Part shown: positions 47,574 through 64,000 of the stretch, one piece after another
How positions within the stretch are numbered: position 1 is the first letter of the stretch
Layout of the letters: every line of letters begins with the position of its first letter
NCBI RefSeq assembly: GCF_027563465.1
Contig: NZ_JAPFQA010000004.1
Coordinates: 248,001-312,000 of the forward strand
Direction of reading: 5' to 3'
DNA: 64,000 nucleotides
Origin: Mesorhizobium qingshengii
Lineage (GTDB): Bacteria; Pseudomonadota; Alphaproteobacteria; Rhizobiales; Rhizobiaceae
Program-made: the position numbers and the translations under genes
The notes under the pieces: model-generated
The model's input: only the letters and a program-made list of their open reading frames with translations
Databases searched by the model: none
Told to the model about the DNA's origin: nothing

Positions 47574-47649
47574 GAGCGCGTAGCTCAGCCGGTAGAGCAA
47601 CTGACTTTTAATCAGTAGGTCATGGGTTCGAATCCCATCGCGCTCACCA
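47574..47649 (+). tRNA. tRNA-Lys (anticodon TTT)
   Basis: 76 bases folding as a complete cloverleaf: acceptor arms GAGCGCG and CGCGCTC, D arm with AGCTCAGCCGGTAGAGC, anticodon arm ACTGA-CTTTTAA-TCAGT (anticodon TTT), T arm ATGGG-TTCGAAT-CCCAT, discriminator A and encoded CCA. Its 3' half is the likely phage attachment site. Confidence 0.97.
47615..47649 (+). other. Probable attL core (3' half of tRNA-Lys)
   Basis: From the anticodon-stem 3' side to the CCA end. Tyrosine-integrase phages often recombine within the tRNA T arm and restore the gene's 3' end. The integrase gene less than 1 kb away points here. The matching copy (attR) would be right of the window; exact borders are not determinable. 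Confidence 0.6.
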
Positions 47650-47724
47650 AAGTTTCACGTGGAACATCAATACGTTAGCGGTTTTGCCAAAAGAACAGAG
47701 GCGGAACCTGTGCGACTTTTGCGA

Positions 47725-48419: not shown

Positions 48420-48587
48420 TCAAGAGCCCTGGCTGATGGCGAGGAAACGCGCAAGGTCGGCCTCCTTGCCGTTCAGCTTGCGGGCCTTGCCGTCCTTGAC
48501 GAGGTAGACGGTGTGCCAGTTGTCGGTGGAGTAGTAGACCCGGCCGTCAACCATTTCGACTTTCTCGGCGCCGGCCGGGATCTTCAT
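48420..48587 (-). CDS. Small protein coupled to the integrase (55 aa)
   Basis: 55 aa starting MKIPAGAEKVEMVDGRVYYS and ending ADLARFLAISQGS. The ATG overlaps the integrase stop (ATGA), so it is co-translated. It looks like a small beta-strand-rich fold with the DNWHTVYLVKDGKARKL segment. No family recognised; a recombination accessory role is a guess from position. Confidence 0.55.
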   Translation of the reverse strand: MKIPAGAEKVEMVDGRVYYSTDNWHTVYLVKDGKARKLNGKEADLARFLAISQGS

Positions 48588-49972
48588 ATCCCGAACTCCG
48601 TTTCGCCGCCGGCGTCGTACCAGGCGACCATCTTCCGGATGGCGGTATCGGCCATTTCCGGGTGCACCGCCAGATAGTGTTTCAGCACGCGCGTCGCGCT
48701 GGTCAAGCTGTGTCCAGTGATGGCGCAAATTTCGGGAATGGTGCAGCCGGCCAGCGCCAGCCAGGTCACCGCCGTGTCGCGCAGATCGGGCTCCTGAAAA
48801 TCGGCCAGCGTCTTGCAGGGCTTGATGATCCAGTCGACGCCGTTTTCAGCGCGGATGCCCTTCACGCCGATGTCGCGCACCTTGGCAAAAACATGGCTGT
48901 AGGTCTGGCCCTCGAACGGCCGCCAGAAGCATTTGTTGAAGCGCCTGTCGAGGTGCTCGTTGAGGATGACGCGCTTGAAACGGCGCTCGATCGCCGGCCG
49001 GTCCTCGGCCTCGGCGCCGAGCAGTGCCTCAGCCTTGGCGGCGCGCCGGCGCTCGGCCGACGCCGCAAGCCGGCGTTCGAGCTCGGGCGCTTCCAGCACG
49101 GCGACGATGGCGCCGGTCTTGGCCTGGCGGAAATGGCGGCGGCCCTTGATCAGGCCAAAATCCTCAAGCGCCAGCCGGTCGCCCTGGCGCTGGCCGCTCC
49201 ACACGCCCAACATAGTCATGTCGCCGCATTCGGGGACGCCGATGTGATCGGCGACCGCGATCAGCGTATCGATCTCGGTGCGGGTGCCGAAGCGGATGCG
49301 CGGCGGCGGCGTCGCCATCTGCAGATCCTGCGCCGGGTTGACGCCGAGGTTTTCGCGGAAGGTGAACTTGCCGCGCCGCTTGCCCCAGCCCAGCGCGATC
49401 GACAGCACGGCGATGGCGCCGCGCGCGGTGGAGATCCCGCGCTTGGCGACCAGCTCTTCATAGAGGCCGAACAGCACAGGCTGCGACAGCGCGTCGACCG
49501 GCGAAGCGTACAGCGTCGGATCGTGCTGCTCGATGACGCGCGCCTTCTGCTTGAAGTCGACCACGGACTTGCGCGCATAGACGTTCTTGGCCGCGACCTG
49601 CCGCTGCAGCTCGGCCTTGTCGGTGGGCAGCTGGAATTTTGTCGACTTGAACCAATCATCGAACAGCTGGCCGACCGTGTAGAATTTCGCGGTGCGCGTC
49701 GGCGCCGGCCTCGGCCCGGATTGTGCCTTGGCTTCCTTTGCCCGCTGCTTGCAGAAGGCATCGGACCAGTCCACGGCCTCGCCGCGGCTAAACCAGCGGC
49801 CGGCGTTCTTGTCGCCTGGCTGCAGCGCCGCCGGCGTCCAGCCTTGCGGCGGCTCTTCCGGCCAGCATAGGTTCGTGCCCTCGAAGCCTTCGGCGCGCAG
49901 CGTCTTGCCCGGCTGGAAGCGCGGGCGGCCGTCGCGCCATGAGACATGCTTGATCGAGGGTGGCTTGCGCAT
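48584..49972 (-). CDS. int: Phage tyrosine-recombinase integrase
   Basis: 462 aa. Catalyses site-specific integration and excision. The C-terminal catalytic domain shows the conserved Arg in EPDLRDTAVTWLALAG, the HxxR/K-box region with ITGHSLTSATRVLKHY, where His and the downstream Tyr of KHYLAVHPE are the expected catalytic pair. An N-terminal SAM-like core-binding domain lies around VGQLFDDWFKSTKFQLPTDK. The gene reads toward tRNA-Lys 0.9 kb away. Confidence 0.92.
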   Translation of the reverse strand: MRKPPSIKHVSWRDGRPRFQPGKTLRAEGFEGTNLCWPEEPPQGWTPAALQPGDKNAGRWFSRGEAVDWSDAFCKQRAKEAKAQSGPRPAPTRTAKFYTVGQLFDDWFKSTKFQLPTDKAELQRQVAAKNVYARKSVVDFKQKARVIEQHDPTLYASPVDALSQPVLFGLYEELVAKRGISTARGAIAVLSIALGWGKRRGKFTFRENLGVNPAQDLQMATPPPRIRFGTRTEIDTLIAVADHIGVPECGDMTMLGVWSGQRQGDRLALEDFGLIKGRRHFRQAKTGAIVAVLEAPELERRLAASAERRRAAKAEALLGAEAEDRPAIERRFKRVILNEHLDRRFNKCFWRPFEGQTYSHVFAKVRDIGVKGIRAENGVDWIIKPCKTLADFQEPDLRDTAVTWLALAGCTIPEICAITGHSLTSATRVLKHYLAVHPEMADTAIRKMVAWYDAGGETEFGI

Positions 49973-52621: not shown

Positions 52622-52822
52622 ATGACGAGCTTCGAAGAAATCGAGAACAGCCGCGCCAAGGCCGGCATCACCCGCAAGGCGCTGTACCAGACGGCCGGCG
52701 TGAACAAGGAAACATGGCGTCGCATCGCGCAGGGCTCGAACCTGCCGAACACGCGAACCCTGCAAAAGCTCAAGGCGGCGCTCGATGCGCTGCTTGCACA
52801 GAGGGAGCGAAGCAATGGATGA
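52622..52822 (+). CDS. Cro-like helix-turn-helix protein
   Basis: 66 aa. The whole protein is a single HTH domain: AKAGITRKALYQTAGVNKET followed by WRRIAQGSNLPNTRTLQKLK. First gene of the rightward operon, divergent from the repressor with the shared operator between. Position and size match Cro-type early repressors that compete for the same sites. The next gene overlaps its stop by 8 bases. Confidence 0.7.
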   Translation: MTSFEEIENSRAKAGITRKALYQTAGVNKETWRRIAQGSNLPNTRTLQKLKAALDALLAQRERSNG

Positions 52823-55623: not shown

Positions 55624-56282
55624 CGCGCGTTCTGGTTGGCTGCGAGATCTCCGGCATCGTGCGGCGGGCGTTCCTAGCTCTCGGCTATGACGCATGGTCT
55701 TGTGATCTGTTGCCCAGCCAGGACGGCAGCAACCGGCACATGGTCTGCGATGTTCGCGACGTGCTGGACGATGGCTGGGATTTGCTGGCCGTCATGCATC
55801 CACCCTGCACGCGGCTCTGCCGCTCCGGCCGGCGCTGGCTGTCAGGCCCCGGCAAGATGACACCGCCGAAGAAGCTGCCCGTCGGTCGGACGTGGGAAAG
55901 CATGATCGAGGAATTCGAAAACGGCGTGGACCTGTTCACGTCATGCTGGCGCGCGCCGATAGCTTGCGTGGCGATCGAGAACCCCGAAATGCACGATCTG
56001 GCCAAAGCGCGGATGCCGGACGATCTGCCAGCGCCGCACATGGTTCAGCCGTTCTGGTTTGGTCACCCCGAATACAAGGGCACCGGCTGGTATCTGCGCG
56101 GGCTGCGGCCGCTGACCGAAACCGCCAGGCTGGCCGAGCCTGCCAAGAACAGCGCCGAGTGGAAGGCTTGGAACCGCGTCTGGCGCATGTCGCCGCGCAA
56201 GGATCGTGGCCAGCAGCGCAGCCAGTTCTTTCCCGGAATGGCCGACGCCATGGCCTTGCAGTGGGGAGCGCAGGCGGCATGA
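55620..56282 (+). CDS. Phage C5-cytosine methyltransferase-like protein, short
   Basis: 220 aa from GTG (55620), overlapping the previous stop. VLVGCEISGIVRRAFLALGY and DAWSCDLLPSQ form the SAM pocket; LAVMHPPCTRLCRSG contains the PC nucleophile motif IV, and CVAIENPEMHDL matches motif VI (EN). It is about half the size of a standard Dcm enzyme and lacks an evident target-recognition domain. Second methyltransferase in a row. Confidence 0.7.
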   Translation: MTRVLVGCEISGIVRRAFLALGYDAWSCDLLPSQDGSNRHMVCDVRDVLDDGWDLLAVMHPPCTRLCRSGRRWLSGPGKMTPPKKLPVGRTWESMIEEFENGVDLFTSCWRAPIACVAIENPEMHDLAKARMPDDLPAPHMVQPFWFGHPEYKGTGWYLRGLRPLTETARLAEPAKNSAEWKAWNRVWRMSPRKDRGQQRSQFFPGMADAMALQWGAQAA

Positions 56283-57445
56283 GCGGCGATCTCGACATCA
56301 TCAAATCGGGGCTGATCGACCGCATCGAAAGCGTCTGCGAAAGGCTGTTGCCGGACGGCAAGCCCGAGGGCGGCCTGTGGGTGGCGTGGAATCCTGTCGA
56401 GCATGACCAGAAGCCCGGCCGCCTGCCGGCGCTGAAAGTGCGCATCCGCAACGGCGATATCGGCGCCTGGAGCTGCTGGCGCTCCGGCGCCAAGGGCGAC
56501 GTGCTGAAACTGGTCGCCTATGTCGAGCGAACCGACATCAAGGGCGCGCTGGCCTGGGGCCGCGATTTCCTCGGCATCCGCTCGATGTCGCCGGCCGAGC
56601 GGCAGAATTTGCGCAAGGCGGAAGTGGTGCGCCAGCGCGAGCGTGACGACAAGGCCGAGCGGTCGCGGCTGTTCAAGCTGCAGACGGCCGACCAGCTGTT
56701 TTTCGCCAAGCCGAGCGAGAAGGAAACCGGCCCGGCTTACTGCCCGCAAGGCACCTTTGCTTATGGAAGTGGCAGCGCGGCCGAGCTGCACGCCAAGGAT
56801 TATTTTCGCGGGCGCGGCCTCGACCTCGACGCGATCCCCGGCCTCAACCGCTATTCGTTCCGGTTCTCGCCGGCGACGGAATACTGGACGGCGGCGCGCT
56901 ACGAAAACAGCCAGGGCCGGCGCTGGAAGGCCGAGCGCGGGCCGCTGTTCCCGGCCATCCATTCGGCGATGCGCAACCGGATGGGCATCGTCACAGCCTG
57001 CCATGTCACCTTCCTCGACCCGGTCAAGCCGGTGAAGGCGCCGGTGAAGCCGGCAAAGCTGATCTGGGGCGAGGCCAAGGGCGCCGTCATCGAGATCTCG
57101 ATGGGGCCGAACGCGGTGCCGTTCTGGATGGCGGATCGCGACGGCCTGGTGCCCGATCCCCTGGTGATCGCCGAAGGCATCGAGACGGCGGCGAGCTTTT
57201 CGCAGCCGGTGCCGGAAGCGCGCGTGTGGGCCGGTGGCTCGCAGGCCGGCGTCGGCTCGGCGCCGGTCGGCCTCGACTGCGTCGAATGGGTGCTGTTCGC
57301 GCGCGACAACAACACCGGCAATGCGCAAGCGCAGAAACAATTCGATCAGGCACTGGCCGGGCTGGAAAGCCATGGCAAGCGCGTCGTCGTGGAAGCCAGC
57401 CACGTCGGCGACGATTTCAACGATCTGGCGCAAGGAGAAGAATGA
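56279..57445 (+). CDS. Phage Toprim-type DNA primase-like protein
   Basis: 388 aa. The C-terminal Toprim part is visible as PLVIAEGIETAASFSQPVPE (the catalytic Glu strand) and VEWVLFARDNNTGNAQAQKQ (the acidic metal-binding segment). N-terminal ~80 residues (LWVAWNPVEHDQKPGRLPAL) replace the usual zinc ribbon; no CxxC is present, so template recognition must differ. With the downstream helicase it probably primes phage replication. Confidence 0.75.
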   Translation: MSGDLDIIKSGLIDRIESVCERLLPDGKPEGGLWVAWNPVEHDQKPGRLPALKVRIRNGDIGAWSCWRSGAKGDVLKLVAYVERTDIKGALAWGRDFLGIRSMSPAERQNLRKAEVVRQRERDDKAERSRLFKLQTADQLFFAKPSEKETGPAYCPQGTFAYGSGSAAELHAKDYFRGRGLDLDAIPGLNRYSFRFSPATEYWTAARYENSQGRRWKAERGPLFPAIHSAMRNRMGIVTACHVTFLDPVKPVKAPVKPAKLIWGEAKGAVIEISMGPNAVPFWMADRDGLVPDPLVIAEGIETAASFSQPVPEARVWAGGSQAGVGSAPVGLDCVEWVLFARDNNTGNAQAQKQFDQALAGLESHGKRVVVEASHVGDDFNDLAQGEE

Positions 57446-57774
57446 TGAAAACCACCGGAAGCCTGGAAGCCGGCGACGCGGCCGCTGCCGCCGTTGCCAA
57501 GACCGACAAGCGGGTGACCCTGGCCAGCATGGAAGGCAAGGTCGAAACCGCGCAATTCTTCAACCCGACATGCGCGCCGCAGCTGACCATCTGCGTCATG
57601 ACGCTGACCAACGGCTTCACGCTGGTCGGCAAATCCGCGCCGGCCGACCCGGCCAACTTCAATAGTGAGCTGGGCGAGAAGTTCGCCCGCGAGGACGCCA
57701 TTCGCCAGATGTGGCCGCTCGAAGGCTACCTGCTGCGCGAAGAGCTTTCCAAGCGCGTCGACGTGGGGGTTTAG
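57442..57774 (+). CDS. Gp49-like phage protein
   Basis: 110 aa (109 if started at the second ATG). NPTCAPQLTICVMTLTNGFT followed by LVGKSAPADPANFNSELGEK and FAREDAIRQMWPLEGYLLRE matches the phage Gp49/Gp66 family of small proteins found in many temperate phages; function unknown. A strong AAGGAGAAG lies before the start, which overlaps the primase stop. Confidence 0.75.
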   Translation: MMKTTGSLEAGDAAAAAVAKTDKRVTLASMEGKVETAQFFNPTCAPQLTICVMTLTNGFTLVGKSAPADPANFNSELGEKFAREDAIRQMWPLEGYLLREELSKRVDVGV

Positions 57775-57778
57775 GATC

Positions 57779-58753
57779 ATGGGACGCAAGAGAGGAAGCC
57801 GTAATGTTGCAGGGAAGCCTGTTGCCGGTCAGCTCGCTGACGCCGCGCCCGTTTCTGGCGCCGGAGACGAGAATAGAGCCGCCGTATCGGATGGCGGGGT
57901 TGTGGACGCCACCGCTGCAGATCAAGCGGGTCAAGCGGCCGACACCGGAAGCGCGGAGGGTGCAGCGCTGGCTGCTGGAACCGACACTGCAAACTATGAT
58001 CCGGCGTCGGCTGCTGGCGCAGCTGTCGCGGCCGCAACGGAAACGGAAGGCGCCGCACCTCTGTACCTCTGCCACAAGCAGGTGCGGGCACTGAAAATCG
58101 CAGCGGTCGAAATTCTTCCGGAGGGCCGCAGCAAGATTGCTCCCAAGGATGCAGGTTACGCACCTTTCCTTGCTCCATCTGGATGGGGCGCCCGCTTCCA
58201 TGGCAGTGAGGACGATCTTGGCTATTACGTCCAATACGATGACGGCTATGCGTCGTGGTCGCCGTCCAAGGCTTTCGAGGACGGCTATAGTTTGATGCCG
58301 GCCACGGCGGCCAACGGCGATCAAGGCGACAGCGATCTGAACGATACGGCGACCGTTCTGTCGGTGGCCGAGTTGGCGCGGGCCGTCGCCGGCGGCGCGC
58401 GCGTGTTTGCAAACGGCGGCATGGCCGTCGATTTCGAGCATGTCTTTGACAGCGAGGAAGCCGCTATCATGGCCGATTTCGTGCGCGGCAATCCCGAGGC
58501 GCCGGCGGAAGCCATGTTCATCCACCTCGGCCTGAAAAAGCGTTACCCGCGCACTGAGCCGAACACCGCCGACCATTTCGTGCTGTCGCTGTTCCATGCG
58601 GCTTGTCGGGCGGCGCTCAAGTTCGAGCAGCAGGTTGCGGCCGAGAAGGCCGCTGCCGAGTTCGCGGCCGCGCCCGCCGGTGGCTGGCCTGGTGAGCGCG
58701 CGCTTGAACCACAAAAGCCGGCGTTCTCTCCCTCCGGCTTTTCCCCGCGCTAG
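57779..58753 (+). CDS. Phage hypothetical protein with Ala-rich N-terminal linker (324 aa)
   Basis: 324 aa. A basic start MGRKRGSRNVAGKPVAGQLA, a ~75-residue Ala/Gly/Asp-rich low-complexity region, a central compact domain (LYLCHKQVRALKIAAVEILP, GYYVQYDDGYASWSPSKAFE) and an Ala-rich tail. The central YASWSPSKAFEDGY is typical of a small phage domain often found in proteins next to Gp49-like genes; it has no known activity. Starts four bases after the previous stop. Confidence 0.55.
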   Translation: MGRKRGSRNVAGKPVAGQLADAAPVSGAGDENRAAVSDGGVVDATAADQAGQAADTGSAEGAALAAGTDTANYDPASAAGAAVAAATETEGAAPLYLCHKQVRALKIAAVEILPEGRSKIAPKDAGYAPFLAPSGWGARFHGSEDDLGYYVQYDDGYASWSPSKAFEDGYSLMPATAANGDQGDSDLNDTATVLSVAELARAVAGGARVFANGGMAVDFEHVFDSEEAAIMADFVRGNPEAPAEAMFIHLGLKKRYPRTEPNTADHFVLSLFHAACRAALKFEQQVAAEKAAAEFAAAPAGGWPGERALEPQKPAFSPSGFSPR

Positions 58754-58849: not shown

Positions 58850-60712
58850 GTGGCGAAGGCGCAGACACAGACCGGTTCCAAGGCGCTCCGCGCCGCCTTC
58901 CTCGATGGCAAGCGCGCCAAGGATGAAGCCGACGCGCTGGCCGCGCTCGATCCCGATCCGAACCTGCCGCGCGACGGCATCAACCCCGGCATGTGGGAAG
59001 GCGCGCCGTTCGACACCATGCCGCCGGACTGCCCGGTGAAAGTCGTCGGCCGCGATTCGGACGGCAACGTCTACTGCATTTCGACCACGGGAAACCTGCG
59101 CAAGATCGAGCGATGGGACATGCCGGCGCTGGCCGACCTGTTCGCGCCGAAGATCAACACGCTGATGTGGGCATGGCCTGGCTGGGGCAAGAAGGACGTG
59201 TGGGACCCCGAGCAGGAAAAGATGGTGACCAAAAAGATCGTCAACCGCGTCGAGCGCGACAAATGCATGATGGCGATCATCAATGAGGCGGCGCGCAAGC
59301 CGGACTTCGACCCGAACACGCAACATCGCGGCCGTGGCGGCTGGGTGGACAGCCATGGGCGGTTCGTGTGGCATTCCGGCGGCTGGCTGTGGCTGGTCGA
59401 CGGCAAGCGGCTGGAACAGGCCCGGCCGGCGCAGCATGACGGGTTTCTCTACACCAAGCAGGCGCCGACGATCGAGCCCTGGGCCGAGCCGGTGACATCG
59501 GAGGAAAGCCCGGCGCGGCGCATCCTCGAAGATCTCCGCACATGGAACTGGCAGCGGCCCTATCTCGACCCGGTGCTGGTGCTGGGCTGGATCGCCACGG
59601 CGCTGATGGGCGGCGCCTTGAAGGCGCGGCCGATCATCTTTGCAACGGGCGGCGCCGGCGTGGGAAAAAGCCGCTTGCAGGAAGTGGTGAAATCGGCGCT
59701 GCACGGCGCGGTGACGGCTTCCGTCAACACCACGGCCGCCGGCATCTACCAGCGCGCCAAGACCGACAGCCTGCCGTTCATGATCGATGAGCTGGAATCA
59801 AAGCCCGGCTCGACCAGGGCGGAAAGCGTCATCGAGCTGGCCCGCGTCGCCTACACCGGCGGCGACATCAGCCGCGGCGGCCAGGACCACGAGGCGACCA
59901 CGTTCACGGCGCGCAATTCGTTCTTCTTCTCGGCCATCATCCCGCCGCCCATGGGCGCGCAGGACAAGACGCGCATGGCGATGCTGAACCTGTCGCAGCT
60001 CGACCGGCCGGGCAAGAGCGGCCGCGACCTGGTGCTGAAGCCGGAGACGGACGGCCGCATGATCCTGCGGCAGATCATGGATGGCTGGAAAGAGTTCAAC
60101 GAAGTGCTGATGCCCGACCTTGCCACGATCCTGGGCGAGCGCGGCCTGTCGGCGCGCGCGATCGACACCTTCGGCACGCTGCTGGCGGCCGCCAGGCTGC
60201 TTGTCGGCGACGATGTGCTGGAAGAGATCGGCCTGCCGATGGCCGACGCCACGCACCTGGGCGAGCTGATCGCCGAGGCGACCTCGGCCGACCGCACCGA
60301 AAACCTCGACCACTGGCACAAATGCATCGACACGCTGTTCCAGAGCCAGATCGACGCCTGGCGCGATGGCGTCAAGCCGACGATCGGCGGCGTGTGCGAG
60401 CTGCTGCGCACCGGCGAATGGAATGCCAAGGGCGCGCGCGAGCGGCTGGAGCTGGTCAGCCTCGGCTGTTTCGATCGCGGCAAGGTGGAGCCCAACGCCG
60501 GCGCCGTGCTGGCCGTTCCGGCGAGCGCGCCGCAGCTGCATCGGATCTTCGGCGATACCGATTTCCACAAGGGCGGCTGGTACACGGCGCTGAAACAGGC
60601 GCCCAAGGGCATCGTGCTGCCGGCGCGCAAGGTCAAGATCAACGGCAGCACCACGCATTGCATGCTGATCGACCTCGATGCGTTCGAGAAGCATGTTGGA
60701 GCGGGGCTGTGA
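58850..60712 (+). CDS. Phage P-loop helicase/ATPase (replicative)
   Basis: 620 aa from GTG at 58850. Walker A GGAGVGKSRLQEVVKSAL and Walker B LPFMIDELESKPGS sit in a DUF927/SF3-like ATPase core that spans about residues 235-420, with NSFFFSAIIPPPMGAQDKTR as sensor region. An N-terminal ~200 residues may contact DNA. With the Toprim primase three genes upstream it forms the likely phage replication pair. Ninety-six bases without a gene precede it. Confidence 0.75.
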   Translation: MAKAQTQTGSKALRAAFLDGKRAKDEADALAALDPDPNLPRDGINPGMWEGAPFDTMPPDCPVKVVGRDSDGNVYCISTTGNLRKIERWDMPALADLFAPKINTLMWAWPGWGKKDVWDPEQEKMVTKKIVNRVERDKCMMAIINEAARKPDFDPNTQHRGRGGWVDSHGRFVWHSGGWLWLVDGKRLEQARPAQHDGFLYTKQAPTIEPWAEPVTSEESPARRILEDLRTWNWQRPYLDPVLVLGWIATALMGGALKARPIIFATGGAGVGKSRLQEVVKSALHGAVTASVNTTAAGIYQRAKTDSLPFMIDELESKPGSTRAESVIELARVAYTGGDISRGGQDHEATTFTARNSFFFSAIIPPPMGAQDKTRMAMLNLSQLDRPGKSGRDLVLKPETDGRMILRQIMDGWKEFNEVLMPDLATILGERGLSARAIDTFGTLLAAARLLVGDDVLEEIGLPMADATHLGELIAEATSADRTENLDHWHKCIDTLFQSQIDAWRDGVKPTIGGVCELLRTGEWNAKGARERLELVSLGCFDRGKVEPNAGAVLAVPASAPQLHRIFGDTDFHKGGWYTALKQAPKGIVLPARKVKINGSTTHCMLIDLDAFEKHVGAGL

Positions 60713-61219: not shown

Positions 61220-61640
61220 GCTCCGGCGGCCATAGGCCGCCCTGGCGCGCGTCCAGCGCGCCTTGCAGTGCGATTCCCTTGCCCTTCTGGATGATGAGCG
61301 CACCCAGCGCCTTCCCGTCCATTGCCGTGCCCTGGTGCGCGGCGCTGCTGCAATGCGTCGCGTCAAGACAACTTGCAGCCCGGCAGGGCTGCGCCGCTTT
61401 CCCTAGACCAGCCCTCGCAGGGCAATTGAAGTCGATTTTTCGGCGGTATTTGAGCCGACCCCGCGCCCGTTTCGCCGGGTCAAATCGTGACATTCTGTCA
61501 CCATTTCCCGCGCCCCATTTGACGCCCTTTGCCCTCGCCCGACCAGAGTTCAAGGGTGTTCCGCCGCGCCAAACCATGGCTTGCAATTGACGATAGGCGG
61601 TTTCGGCGAGGCTGATTGAGCCGCCAACGGGAGCGGGAGC
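61220..61640. other. Gene-poor start of the early-late boundary
   Basis: No convincing gene. There is a short palindromic stretch GGCGGCCATAGGCCGCC at ~61225 and another, GGCGCGCGTCCAGCGCGCC, right after it, either of which could end the early transcript. Small frames (61279-61590 on plus) have no ribosome site. Confidence 0.45.
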
Positions 61641-61854
61641 GGTTACCGGGTTACCTGATGGTTACCCACGCGGTAACCGGAAAATGCCAAGGAAATCAAC
61701 GACATGAGCTATTTTGTTACCGGTTCCCCGGCTAATGCGACCTCGCATCGTACGCGCGCGCGCATGCGCTGTATGAGGTAACCACGTAACCGGTAACCGT
61801 AGGGGTATATCCATTTGAATTATCTATCGAAAAGCCGGTTCCCGAAAGGTTACC
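61641..61854. repeat. Cluster of GGTTACC/GGTAACC sites before the terminase genes
   Basis: GGTTACC at 61641, 61649, 61660 and 61848; GGTAACC at 61672, 61777 and 61792; near matches GTTACC at 61716 and GTAACC at 61786. Spacings of 8-15 bases within two dense groups separated by ~95 bases, with a CG-alternating tract (ACGCGCGCGCGCATGCG) between. Typical of a multi-copy protein-binding site such as a packaging site or late operator. Confidence 0.75.
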
Positions 61855-61884
61855 CAAGGCCTCGATCGGGAACCGGAATAAAAA

Positions 61885-62532
61885 ATGGCACATGGAGCGC
61901 TTTCCGTGGCGGATGACGCTGACCAGGGGCATCCAGACGCCCACACACCGCCGCCGGCCGAGCTCCCTGGCGCCGATCCGCTCGACCTCCTGGCCGGCTT
62001 GCCAGATGGCGAGGGCACTGACGCTCTGGCGCTGGCGGCCGAAATCGTTGCTGCGCCAGCTCGGGCGCGGGGGAGGCCGCTTGGTGCCGCCAACCGCAAG
62101 AACGGGGATCTGATCCGCTACCTGCAAGCGCGCGGCCATCGCGACCCGATGGTGACGCTGTCCATGATCCAGTCGGCCGACTTCGGCGCGCTCTGCCGCC
62201 TGGTGGGCGCTGGCGGTGCCAAGCAGAAGCTGGCGGTCCTCGGGATCATTCGCGGCGCTGCCGCCGACCTGATGCCGTACCATCACGCCAAGAAGCCGCT
62301 GCAGCTGGAACTGCCGGCCGGCGACAAGCGCCCGCTGATGGTGTTCGGCAACGTCGAGAACATGCAGGTCGTGGCCGATGGCGACGGCTTCATGAGCGCT
62401 GGCATGATGCCGACCGATCGCGCCGAAAAAGCCAATGAAATCAATGGTGATGCCGTGCGACAAGCGGTAGACCAGTCGCACGAGAATGCTAACGCGTTGA
62501 AAGGCAACGACAATCCGGGGTCAAGCGACTGA
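61885..62532 (+). CDS. Probable terminase small subunit
   Basis: 215 aa. A disordered Ala/Pro start, then RGRPLGAANRKNGDLIRYLQ, a GRPxGxxNR box with HTH-like helix often seen in small terminase or packaging-associated phage proteins, and DPMVTLSMIQSADFGALCRL. The C-terminal third is hydrophilic. Placed directly before the large terminase and after the GGTTACC cluster, where TerS would bind. Family assignment is by context more than motif. Confidence 0.6.
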   Translation: MAHGALSVADDADQGHPDAHTPPPAELPGADPLDLLAGLPDGEGTDALALAAEIVAAPARARGRPLGAANRKNGDLIRYLQARGHRDPMVTLSMIQSADFGALCRLVGAGGAKQKLAVLGIIRGAAADLMPYHHAKKPLQLELPAGDKRPLMVFGNVENMQVVADGDGFMSAGMMPTDRAEKANEINGDAVRQAVDQSHENANALKGNDNPGSSD

Positions 62533-62833: not shown

Positions 62834-64000
62834 ATGGGTACAGGGCCAGATTTCCAAGGCGATTTCGATATCACCCGCTTCGAGCCGGCCGGTCCAGTCT
62901 GCAAGGCCTTCATCGAGAGCAACGGCCCCTTCGACTTCATTCGAGGGCCATGGGGTAGCGGCAAGACCGTCTCGGCCGTGTTCAAGATCGCGCAGAAGGC
63001 CGGCACGCTGTTTCCGGTCTGCAAGGATGGCAAGATCAACGTCCGCTGCGCCGCCGTGCGCGAAACCTACCGCGAACTGGCCAAGACCGCGCTGCCGACC
63101 TGGCTGCGCTTCTTCCCGAAATACGGCCCGTACACGGCGAAGGAAAAGGATGCCTATTCCGGCGGGCAGGACAGGCCGGTCAACCACATCCTCGAATGGA
63201 ACGTGCTGCGGCAATGGCCGCAGGGCTGGAAAGAAACGACCGTGCGGCTGGAAATGCAGTTCGGCGCGATCGGTTCGGAAAACCTCGAAAGCTTCTTCAA
63301 GGGCTACGAAATCTCCTATGGCTGGCTCAACGAGTGCGACACCATGCACGAGGACGTGCCGGGCCTGCTGTTCGGGCGAACCGGGCGCTATCCGCCGCGC
63401 GACACGATCATGGAGTGGGAGGGCGAACGGCTCGGCTATGAGACCGACCCCGACACCGGCCAGAAGGTCATCAAGATCCCGCGCATGGTATTCGGCGACT
63501 TCAACCCGCCCGACGAAGTAAACTGGACCTACAAGCGCGAGATCGAGGAGCCGGAAAAGTGGCCGGGCTATAACTTTTTTGCGCAGCCGTCAGGGCTGGC
63601 GGCCAATGCCGAGAACCGCAAGCGCAAGACCAGGGCGGATTACGAGGCCGAGGAACGCGGCTTTGGCGGCCCGAAGGCGGCCGACAGCATCCGCAACGTG
63701 CACGGCAAGTACGCGCCCAAGAAAGTCGGCACGATCATCTACGACACGTTCGACCTGGCCGTGCACCGCTCGCCGGAATTGCTCGAACCGATACCGGGCT
63801 TGCCGATATCGCTGGGCTTCGACGGCGGCGGCCGACCGGCGCTGGCGCTCGGCCAGTTCCTACCGGACGGCCGGCTGCGGGCGTTGCGCGAGATCGTCTC
63901 GCAGCCCGATGTGGTGACCGGCGCGACGCGCTTCGCCACCTACTGCGTCGAGCTGCTGCTCGGGGATTTCAAGGGCTATCGCATCGAGGGCGCATATGGC
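62834..64000 (+). CDS. Phage terminase large subunit (3' end outside window)
   Basis: 389 codons visible, open to the end of the window. Packaging motor and nuclease. Walker A is GPWGSGKTVSAVFKI (around residues 38-45), followed by the adenine-motif-like RCAAVRETYRELAKTALPTW and Walker B-like EISYGWLNECDTM. The C-terminal nuclease domain begins at LPISLGFDGGGRPALALGQF, whose Asp is the first metal ligand of the RuvC-like site. It starts the late, structural part of the prophage. Confidence 0.9.
   Translation, partial: MGTGPDFQGDFDITRFEPAGPVCKAFIESNGPFDFIRGPWGSGKTVSAVFKIAQKAGTLFPVCKDGKINVRCAAVRETYRELAKTALPTWLRFFPKYGPYTAKEKDAYSGGQDRPVNHILEWNVLRQWPQGWKETTVRLEMQFGAIGSENLESFFKGYEISYGWLNECDTMHEDVPGLLFGRTGRYPPRDTIMEWEGERLGYETDPDTGQKVIKIPRMVFGDFNPPDEVNWTYKREIEEPEKWPGYNFFAQPSGLAANAENRKRKTRADYEAEERGFGGPKAADSIRNVHGKYAPKKVGTIIYDTFDLAVHRSPELLEPIPGLPISLGFDGGGRPALALGQFLPDGRLRALREIVSQPDVVTGATRFATYCVELLLGDFKGYRIEGAYG

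Follow-up and report, generated by a model that had tools for sequence, protein, structure and literature searches.

An array of 12 short repeats directly in front of the terminase genes of a Mesorhizobium qingshengii prophage is very probably the replication origin of that phage, its iterons predicted to be bound by the C-terminal winged helix of the phage helicase, with one helicase hexamer on each half-origin. The array lies in the window, by which we mean the whole 64,000-nucleotide stretch of DNA analyzed here. Its four-block, two-fold layout is conserved in related phages, the repeated word switches in concert from phage to phage, and the layout accompanies the helicase even beside unrelated terminases. 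The preliminary description of this stretch had offered cos/pac, origin or late operator as readings; of these the origin is now favored, and cos/pac binding by TerS is unlikely as the main role, though it may be an additional one.

A perfect 47-bp repeat occurs at 47604–47650, at the 3′ end of a tRNA-Lys (47574–47649), and again at the window-equivalent of 86491–86537 (L011:5491–5537). The two copies are probably attL and attR and, because they flank it, the prophage is probably ~38.9 kb long. Its virion genes (head-tail connector, capsid, tail, and internal virion proteins) are of the short-tailed phage type, and the nearest named relative by the small terminase subunit (TerS), among the genomes scanned, lies in Mesorhizobium jarvisii. 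ARAGORN also placed a tRNA-Ala at 52721–52793 within the prophage, overlapping a small HTH gene and possibly a false positive. Genes follow the order Toprim primase, variable protein, AAA+ helicase, small ORFs, noncoding stretch with the array, terS, and terL, and the small ORFs lie within the ~930 bp between the helicase stop and the array. Window coordinates are as follows.

48584–49972: integrase
56279–57445, forward strand: Toprim primase of 388 aa (Toprim_3, DUF7146), presumed partner of the helicase
57665–58753, forward strand: variable protein of 362 aa, between the primase and helicase genes
58850–60712, forward strand: AAA+ primase-helicase/initiator of 620 aa, the predicted array reader (phrog_35358 DNA primase, 5.9e-35)
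60362–60709, forward strand: predicted C-terminal winged-helix domain of the helicase, residues ~505–620, from the helix/strand order in the model (pLDDT 71–89 per ten-residue block from residue 501)
60623–60667, forward strand: putative β-wing, residues 592–606, the top word-covarying 15-residue window, which holds K596
61641–61678: outer left block, with exact GGTTACC at 61641+, 61649+, 61660+, and 61672−
61679–61714: A+T-rich gap between the outer and inner left blocks, assigned from sequence
61715–61728, forward strand: inner left block, TGTTACC (61715) and GGTTCCC (61722), each with one mismatch, at positions kept in close relatives
61749–61768: central alternating purine-pyrimidine tract CGTACGCGCGCGCGCATGCG, with inverted CCTC/GAGG on its flanks
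61777–61798, reverse strand: inner right block, 61777−, 61785− (one mismatch), and 61792−
61799–61836: A+T-rich gap TATATCCATTTGAATTATCTATCG, conserved among close relatives
61837–61874: outer right block, 61837+ (one mismatch), 61848+ (exact), and 61868− (one mismatch)
61909–62532, forward strand: TerS, likely with a GTG start at 61909 behind the ribosome site GGAGCG
62834–64000, forward strand, continuing beyond the window to L010:3444: large terminase subunit TerL, ~28% identical to the TerL of BcepC6B

TerS probably starts at GTG 61909 and not at ATG 61885, since the ribosome site and the MAD... start of its relatives agree. The protein had no Pfam, PHROGs or NCBIfam match, and its weak structural model (mean pLDDT 54) contains several short helices in residues 63–124.

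The seven exact GGTTACC/GGTAACC sites first noticed, in both orientations, were all recovered (61641+, 61649+, 61660+, 61672−, 61777−, 61792−, and 61848+). Near matches are present as well, at five one-mismatch sites (61715, 61722, 61785, 61837, and 61868) and not the two originally counted, so that 12 sites lie within 234 bp (61641–61874). The clustering stands, with the alternating tract lying between the groups and both terminase genes following directly, but four blocks (61641–61678, 61715–61728, 61777–61798, and 61837–61874) describe it better than the two dense groups of the preliminary description. Over both strands of the window GGTTACC occurs eight times exactly against 1.65 expected (sd 1.27), a count of at least eight was reached in 0 of 100 shuffles, and the densest other 241-bp stretch holds three places at up to one mismatch. 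The host genome (6.51 Mb) contains 275 exact copies, ~1 per 24 kb for both strands together, and the word is therefore rarer than the once per ~8 kb per strand at first assumed. Positions 61600–61900 matched only themselves in their own genome at E ≤ 0.001. Cumulative GC skew had no extreme at the array, and a skew minimum was rejected as origin evidence.

TerS relatives were drawn from viral contigs, named genomes, family genomes (match in 18 of 394), and class genomes (4 of 385). They carry a repeated word at the same place (L033 among them), nearly always around an alternating purine-pyrimidine tract; the exceptions are two contigs that begin inside terS (L007 and L025), the weak match L057, and L035, which conforms only loosely. 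GGTTACC is the word in most of these relatives, and elsewhere it is replaced by CGGTTGAA, GTTGCC, CGGTTAGA, TAGACAG, GGGACAA, AAGACACC, TGGAACA, CCTAACG, or CGTTAC, among others; GGTTGAA, CTAACC, TTGTCCC, and GTTCCA also occur as the word. The copies inside one phage switch word in concert, as expected for many sites with one protein reader. One locus (L070, G121:C1:787719–807718), apparently a decayed prophage, has an integrase, a terS that is broken, and a AAGACACC array that looks intact; it borders host genes on its far side, and its 20 kb yielded no match to the helicase.

Strong helicase matches occurred in 20 of 394 family genomes, all 20 with an array, including two (G058 and G368) that the TerS search had missed. 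The array travels with the upstream helicase gene, and the layout also extends to distant helicase homologues in phages of other hosts. In Synechococcus phage MinM1, 12 sites of the word CTCACA lie right behind such a homologue; the gene after the array is antiterminator-like, and the TerS and TerL of this phage match other PHROG families. A GGTAACA array directly behind the homologue in phi1422 is followed by a gene without a TerS match, a GTCCCC array in the genome locus L110 (G268) by a gene without a match, and S-H1 has the same layout in less regular form. Acinetobacter phage Acjo_20 has a GTTACA/TGTAAC array upstream, not downstream, of its helicase homologue (L120:3001–3540). Weaker helicase matches in five genomes (G111 left out) gave the L110 array and none in L111, L112, and L113. 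Helicase matches were listed in 23 phage records, of which nine were scanned; L114, L118, and L119 had no array, and the scans found none beside the homologues of PHB04, PY223, and Mwe-JY13.

Two helicase-alignment scans of viral contigs gave at least 149 loci after removal of repeated contigs; these are distinct contigs, though maybe not distinct phages. Among the matches listed, 73 of 146 loci had at least eight copies of one 6-mer in 330 bp within the first 1.5 kb behind the helicase, compared with 0 of 133 upstream of it and 1 of 149 inside the gene. When genome and phage loci were included and the downstream range was extended to 4 kb, 144 of 181 loci had at least eight copies, including L137, which looks like a coding repeat; the other 37 had fewer, 17 of them seven, and several of the 37 were truncated contigs. 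Seven or more copies were present in 161 loci, and after two (L137 and L168) were dropped for coding-like words, 159 arrays remained, with a median of 12 sites and exactly 12 in 60. Both a usable helicase and a usable TerS were available for 144, or for 116 phages once helicases at least 90% identical were removed. In this non-redundant set the median and mode were again 12 sites (47 of 116), and a separate one-mismatch count likewise had a median of 12. Four blocks were recognized in 84 of the 116, most commonly split 6+6 (36 of 84), and the inner blocks were oppositely oriented in 82 of 84. Median spacing was 8 bp in inner and 11 bp in outer blocks, with 44 bp between outer and inner blocks, 61 bp at the center, and a total span of 248 bp. 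Array gaps of 38–49 bp had a median A+T fraction of 0.62 (n = 250) versus 0.35 for whole loci, and alternating runs of at least 12 occurred in 137 of 232 array gaps of 50–100 bp versus 6 of 477 random 50-mers.

The main alternative, which we consider improbable, is that the array is a cos or pac site, bound by TerS, with packaging starting at or beside it. Phage lambda provides the model, with the cosB repeats of its packaging site immediately upstream of the small-terminase gene nu1, and the array studied here likewise lies just before such a gene. Position speaks for this alternative: in most relatives the array lies directly ahead of terS or runs into the beginning of its frame, with the last site within 150 bp of that frame or overlapping it in 125 of 145 cases, and it sits closer to TerS (median 26 bp) than to the helicase, whose stop codon lies a median of 603 bp from the first site (n = 159). 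Apart from the weak L057 and the loosely matching L035, an array is present wherever the sequence upstream of a TerS relative is long enough, and L070 keeps one with a broken terS and without a helicase. Against it, 19 of 145 arrays end at least 500 bp before terS, and MinM1, phi1422, and L110 have the array without a homologous TerS beside it. The two-fold symmetry would, moreover, offer no packaging direction.

Covariation of the word with the two proteins bears on both readings. Over all 6,670 pairs of the 116 phages, the word correlated with the winged helix (0.311), the helicase C-terminus (0.200), the TerS HTH (0.262), and whole TerS (0.275); given AAA identity, the values were 0.245, 0.084, 0.212 (permutation p 0.002), and 0.210, respectively. 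With both in one model, the winged helix retained 0.215 and the TerS HTH 0.177. Helicase and TerS are poorly separated over all pairs, and only close pairs separate them. Close pairs were examined because the all-pairs Mantel result (C-terminus 0.084 versus TerS HTH 0.212) went against the helicase reading, and the tests were matched on AAA identity because the winged helix evolves more quickly than TerS and a given percentage of identity therefore stands for different degrees of relatedness in the two. Among 1,125 pairs with AAA domains at least 50% identical, the partial correlations were 0.372 for the winged helix and −0.023 for the TerS HTH; at 60% (400 pairs) the partial rank correlations were 0.582 and −0.243, and at 70% (150 pairs) the partials were 0.536 and −0.225. 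In the 400 pairs, word sharing was predicted with an AUC of 0.856 by the winged helix, 0.811 by residues ~420–503 before it, 0.708 by the AAA domain, and 0.527 by the helicase N-terminus, as against 0.540 by the TerS HTH and 0.498 by whole TerS; logistic weights were 2.02 for the winged helix and −0.01 for the TerS HTH. Thus, TerS adds nothing among pairs with similar helicases, and covariation of the sites with TerS is absent in close relatives (AUC 0.498–0.540) and weak over all pairs (0.177 after the helicase).

A word was common to 129 of 136 pairs at least 60% identical in helicase residues ~553–606, compared with 164 of 316 pairs at least 60% identical in the TerS HTH and 17 of 29 at 80%; the 12 of 29 with differing words include L224/L247, whose TerS HTHs are 96% identical. 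Two close relatives, L051 and L053, share the TerS HTH and are 78% identical in TerS as a whole, yet their words are CTGTCTA and TTGTCCC, which argues against TerS as the reader; that first hypothesis was dropped on this pair and the close-pair statistics. The 61885–62532 product, TerS, proposed at the outset as the binding partner, is probably the wrong protein, as words in close relatives follow the winged-helix end of the helicase. A fast-changing 282–292-aa protein upstream of the helicase was also rejected as reader, since L078 and L079 keep the array with this protein not beside the helicase. We take close-pair word sharing as good, though not conclusive, evidence that the C-terminal end of the helicase reads the word.

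Within the helicase, the best 15-residue window is the putative β-wing (0.336, partial 0.279), whereas the best TerS window lies in the N-terminal tail (0.281, partial 0.134), and the windows of its HTH score 0.263 at most. The top of 765 columns was helicase K596 (partial r 0.377), against maxima of 0.350, 0.355, and 0.378 under three within-cluster permutation schemes (300 each), the third of which reached 0.377 at least once. Weighing against the helicase as reader, winged-helix columns taken together scored no higher than its other columns (P 0.19). So does the pair L075 and L077, in which the winged helices are 76% identical and the putative recognition helices identical but the words differ, though residue 596 is T in one and R in the other.

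Six stretches from TerL relatives in the phage collection (17 records, ~25–28% identical) were scanned for arrays and are uninformative on cos. No comparable array was found near the terminases of BcepC6B, Ss1, and Y3, and Pmp11 has a repeat inside its terS. The Vibrio phage VA-RY-3 (L060:2720–3160, TTTATCC) and the Pseudomonas phage Rollin (L061:240–640, TATGCAA), both with a distantly related TerL and absent from the 23 phage records with a helicase match, have arrays away from terS. Genome ends of cultured TerL relatives were set aside as cos evidence, the TerL proteins being only ~25–28% identical.

Less probable still is a late-gene operator, at which a phage regulator such as the 57665–58753 protein or an HTH protein would bind the array and time the terS-terL operon. 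The array does lie at the early-late boundary, and the protein beside the helicase does change much faster than its neighbors: in L075 and L077 (10684–11532 and 10642–11520, respectively) this low-complexity-rich protein between the primase and helicase genes is 42% identical, compared with 76–82% for primase, helicase, TerS, TerL, and portal. However, L078 and L079 keep the array where the variable protein is not beside the helicase, the layout is found as well at loci that have no terminase gene immediately behind it, and the Acjo_20 array lies upstream of the helicase. A chance or compositional repeat, for which general C+G richness and nothing further speaks, is practically dismissed by the shuffles, none of which reached eight copies, and by a layout that is conserved while the word changes.

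The helicase model had a mean pLDDT of 67.3 and a pTM of 0.38, with most of the ATPase core below 60. Its top Foldseek matches were SF3/D5-type initiator helicases, led by the NrS-1 primase-helicase (E 1.8e-4) and followed by MPXV E5, papilloma E1, SaPI5 Rep (0.037), and related enzymes, at TM-scores of ~0.2–0.3, with only three matches at E < 0.001 and unrelated enzymes also high in the list; JCV T-antigen was among the weaker matches. VIA returned generic AAA+ matches (Z < 6), and neither P4 alpha nor SaPI Rep was among the matches listed, which is not evidence of absence. Pfam gave weak AAA/DUF5906 matches in one or two of 17 helicase members, and no confident family was assigned in Pfam or NCBIfam. 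PDB profile searches with the helicase and TerS alignments yielded a P-loop protein and weak matches, and the C-terminal alignment (13 rows, of which L151 and L163 end short of the wing) found no relative in that search. For model residues 480–620, VIA gave the TcpK structure 5vfy (Z 4.9, rmsd 4.0 Å, 96 aligned), a score that may reflect a common arrangement alone. At the pCW3 oriT, the winged-helix protein TcpK recognizes tandem repeats of 9 nt mainly via its β-wing (PMC6137059); unlike the protein here, it is an accessory conjugation protein without a helicase.

For the favored reading, the array as replication origin, we propose that the 12 iterons, six on each side of the alternating tract, are bound by the winged-helix domains of the helicase (58850–60712), with one site per subunit. 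Two hexamers would assemble on the two half-origins, open the DNA at one A+T-rich gap between outer and inner blocks or at both, and load themselves, and the adjacent Toprim primase (56279–57445) would prime. The principle is known from SaPI Rep-ori and from SCCmec Cch2, where a self-loading initiator helicase reads several short iterons downstream of its own gene with its C-terminal domain, and the helicase model matched the fold of SaPI5 Rep at E 0.037. A SaPI-like C-terminal dsDNA-binding domain reading the iterons would fit both the modeled order of winged-helix elements and the word sharing of close relatives. The putative origin of Cch2 has three iterons (PMC7581432). Here, by contrast, the element is a complete tailed phage and not a satellite, with a separate Toprim primase and four blocks, most often 6+6, with two A+T gaps, a central alternating tract, and terS adjoining; compared with the SaPI iterons, the surveyed arrays are also downstream, with a first site at a median of 603 bp past the stop and often not directly behind it.

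Other systems share parts of this arrangement. At the SV40 and papillomavirus origins, the SF3 helicases T-antigen and E1 form double hexamers on short words that are arranged with two-fold symmetry and accompanied by A+T tracts. These initiators read their origin by an N-terminal domain (PMC7581432), whereas here the reader appears to be the helicase C-terminus. Phage P4 alpha comprises a Toprim-type primase, a helicase, and a winged-helix origin-binding domain that reads repeats (PMC4234260). Alpha is a single polypeptide, unlike the primase and helicase here, which are encoded by separate genes (56279–57445 and 58850–60712). The P4 word GGTGAACA resembles GGTTACC, and we know of no two-fold, four-block layout in P4. 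Lambda cosB differs in that the words of close relatives here do not follow TerS and that the array also stands beside unrelated terminases.

A self-loading helicase with a C-terminal iteron reader is a known principle; the four-block 6+6 layout with word switching appears to be new, no counterpart having been recognized among the open-licence papers listed. To our knowledge, how self-loading viral helicases come together as double hexamers at an origin is known mainly from work on a few eukaryotic viruses and SaPI. The family described here supplies a single origin in many natural versions, with a near-fixed geometry (6+6 sites, two A+T gaps, and one center) and a changing word. It thus allows direct tests, with small phage proteins, of whether each subunit takes one site and of which residues recognize the word. 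In many genomes of temperate podoviruses, the layout can also serve to find the likely origin. Repeats ahead of terS would naturally be taken for packaging sites, and the present results correct that assumption. That the array so often touches terS may reflect only the early-late operon junction, or a coupling of replication with packaging or late transcription. We further hypothesize, at about even odds, a general 6+6 grammar in which 12 sites place exactly two self-loading hexamers in opposite orientation, the word is rewritten together with a few β-wing residues, and the arrangement is kept across very different hosts. If this grammar is true, these phages would amount to a ready-made natural collection of numerous origin-initiator pairs that exclude one another, and the place of the array before terS may also couple replication to late transcription or packaging.
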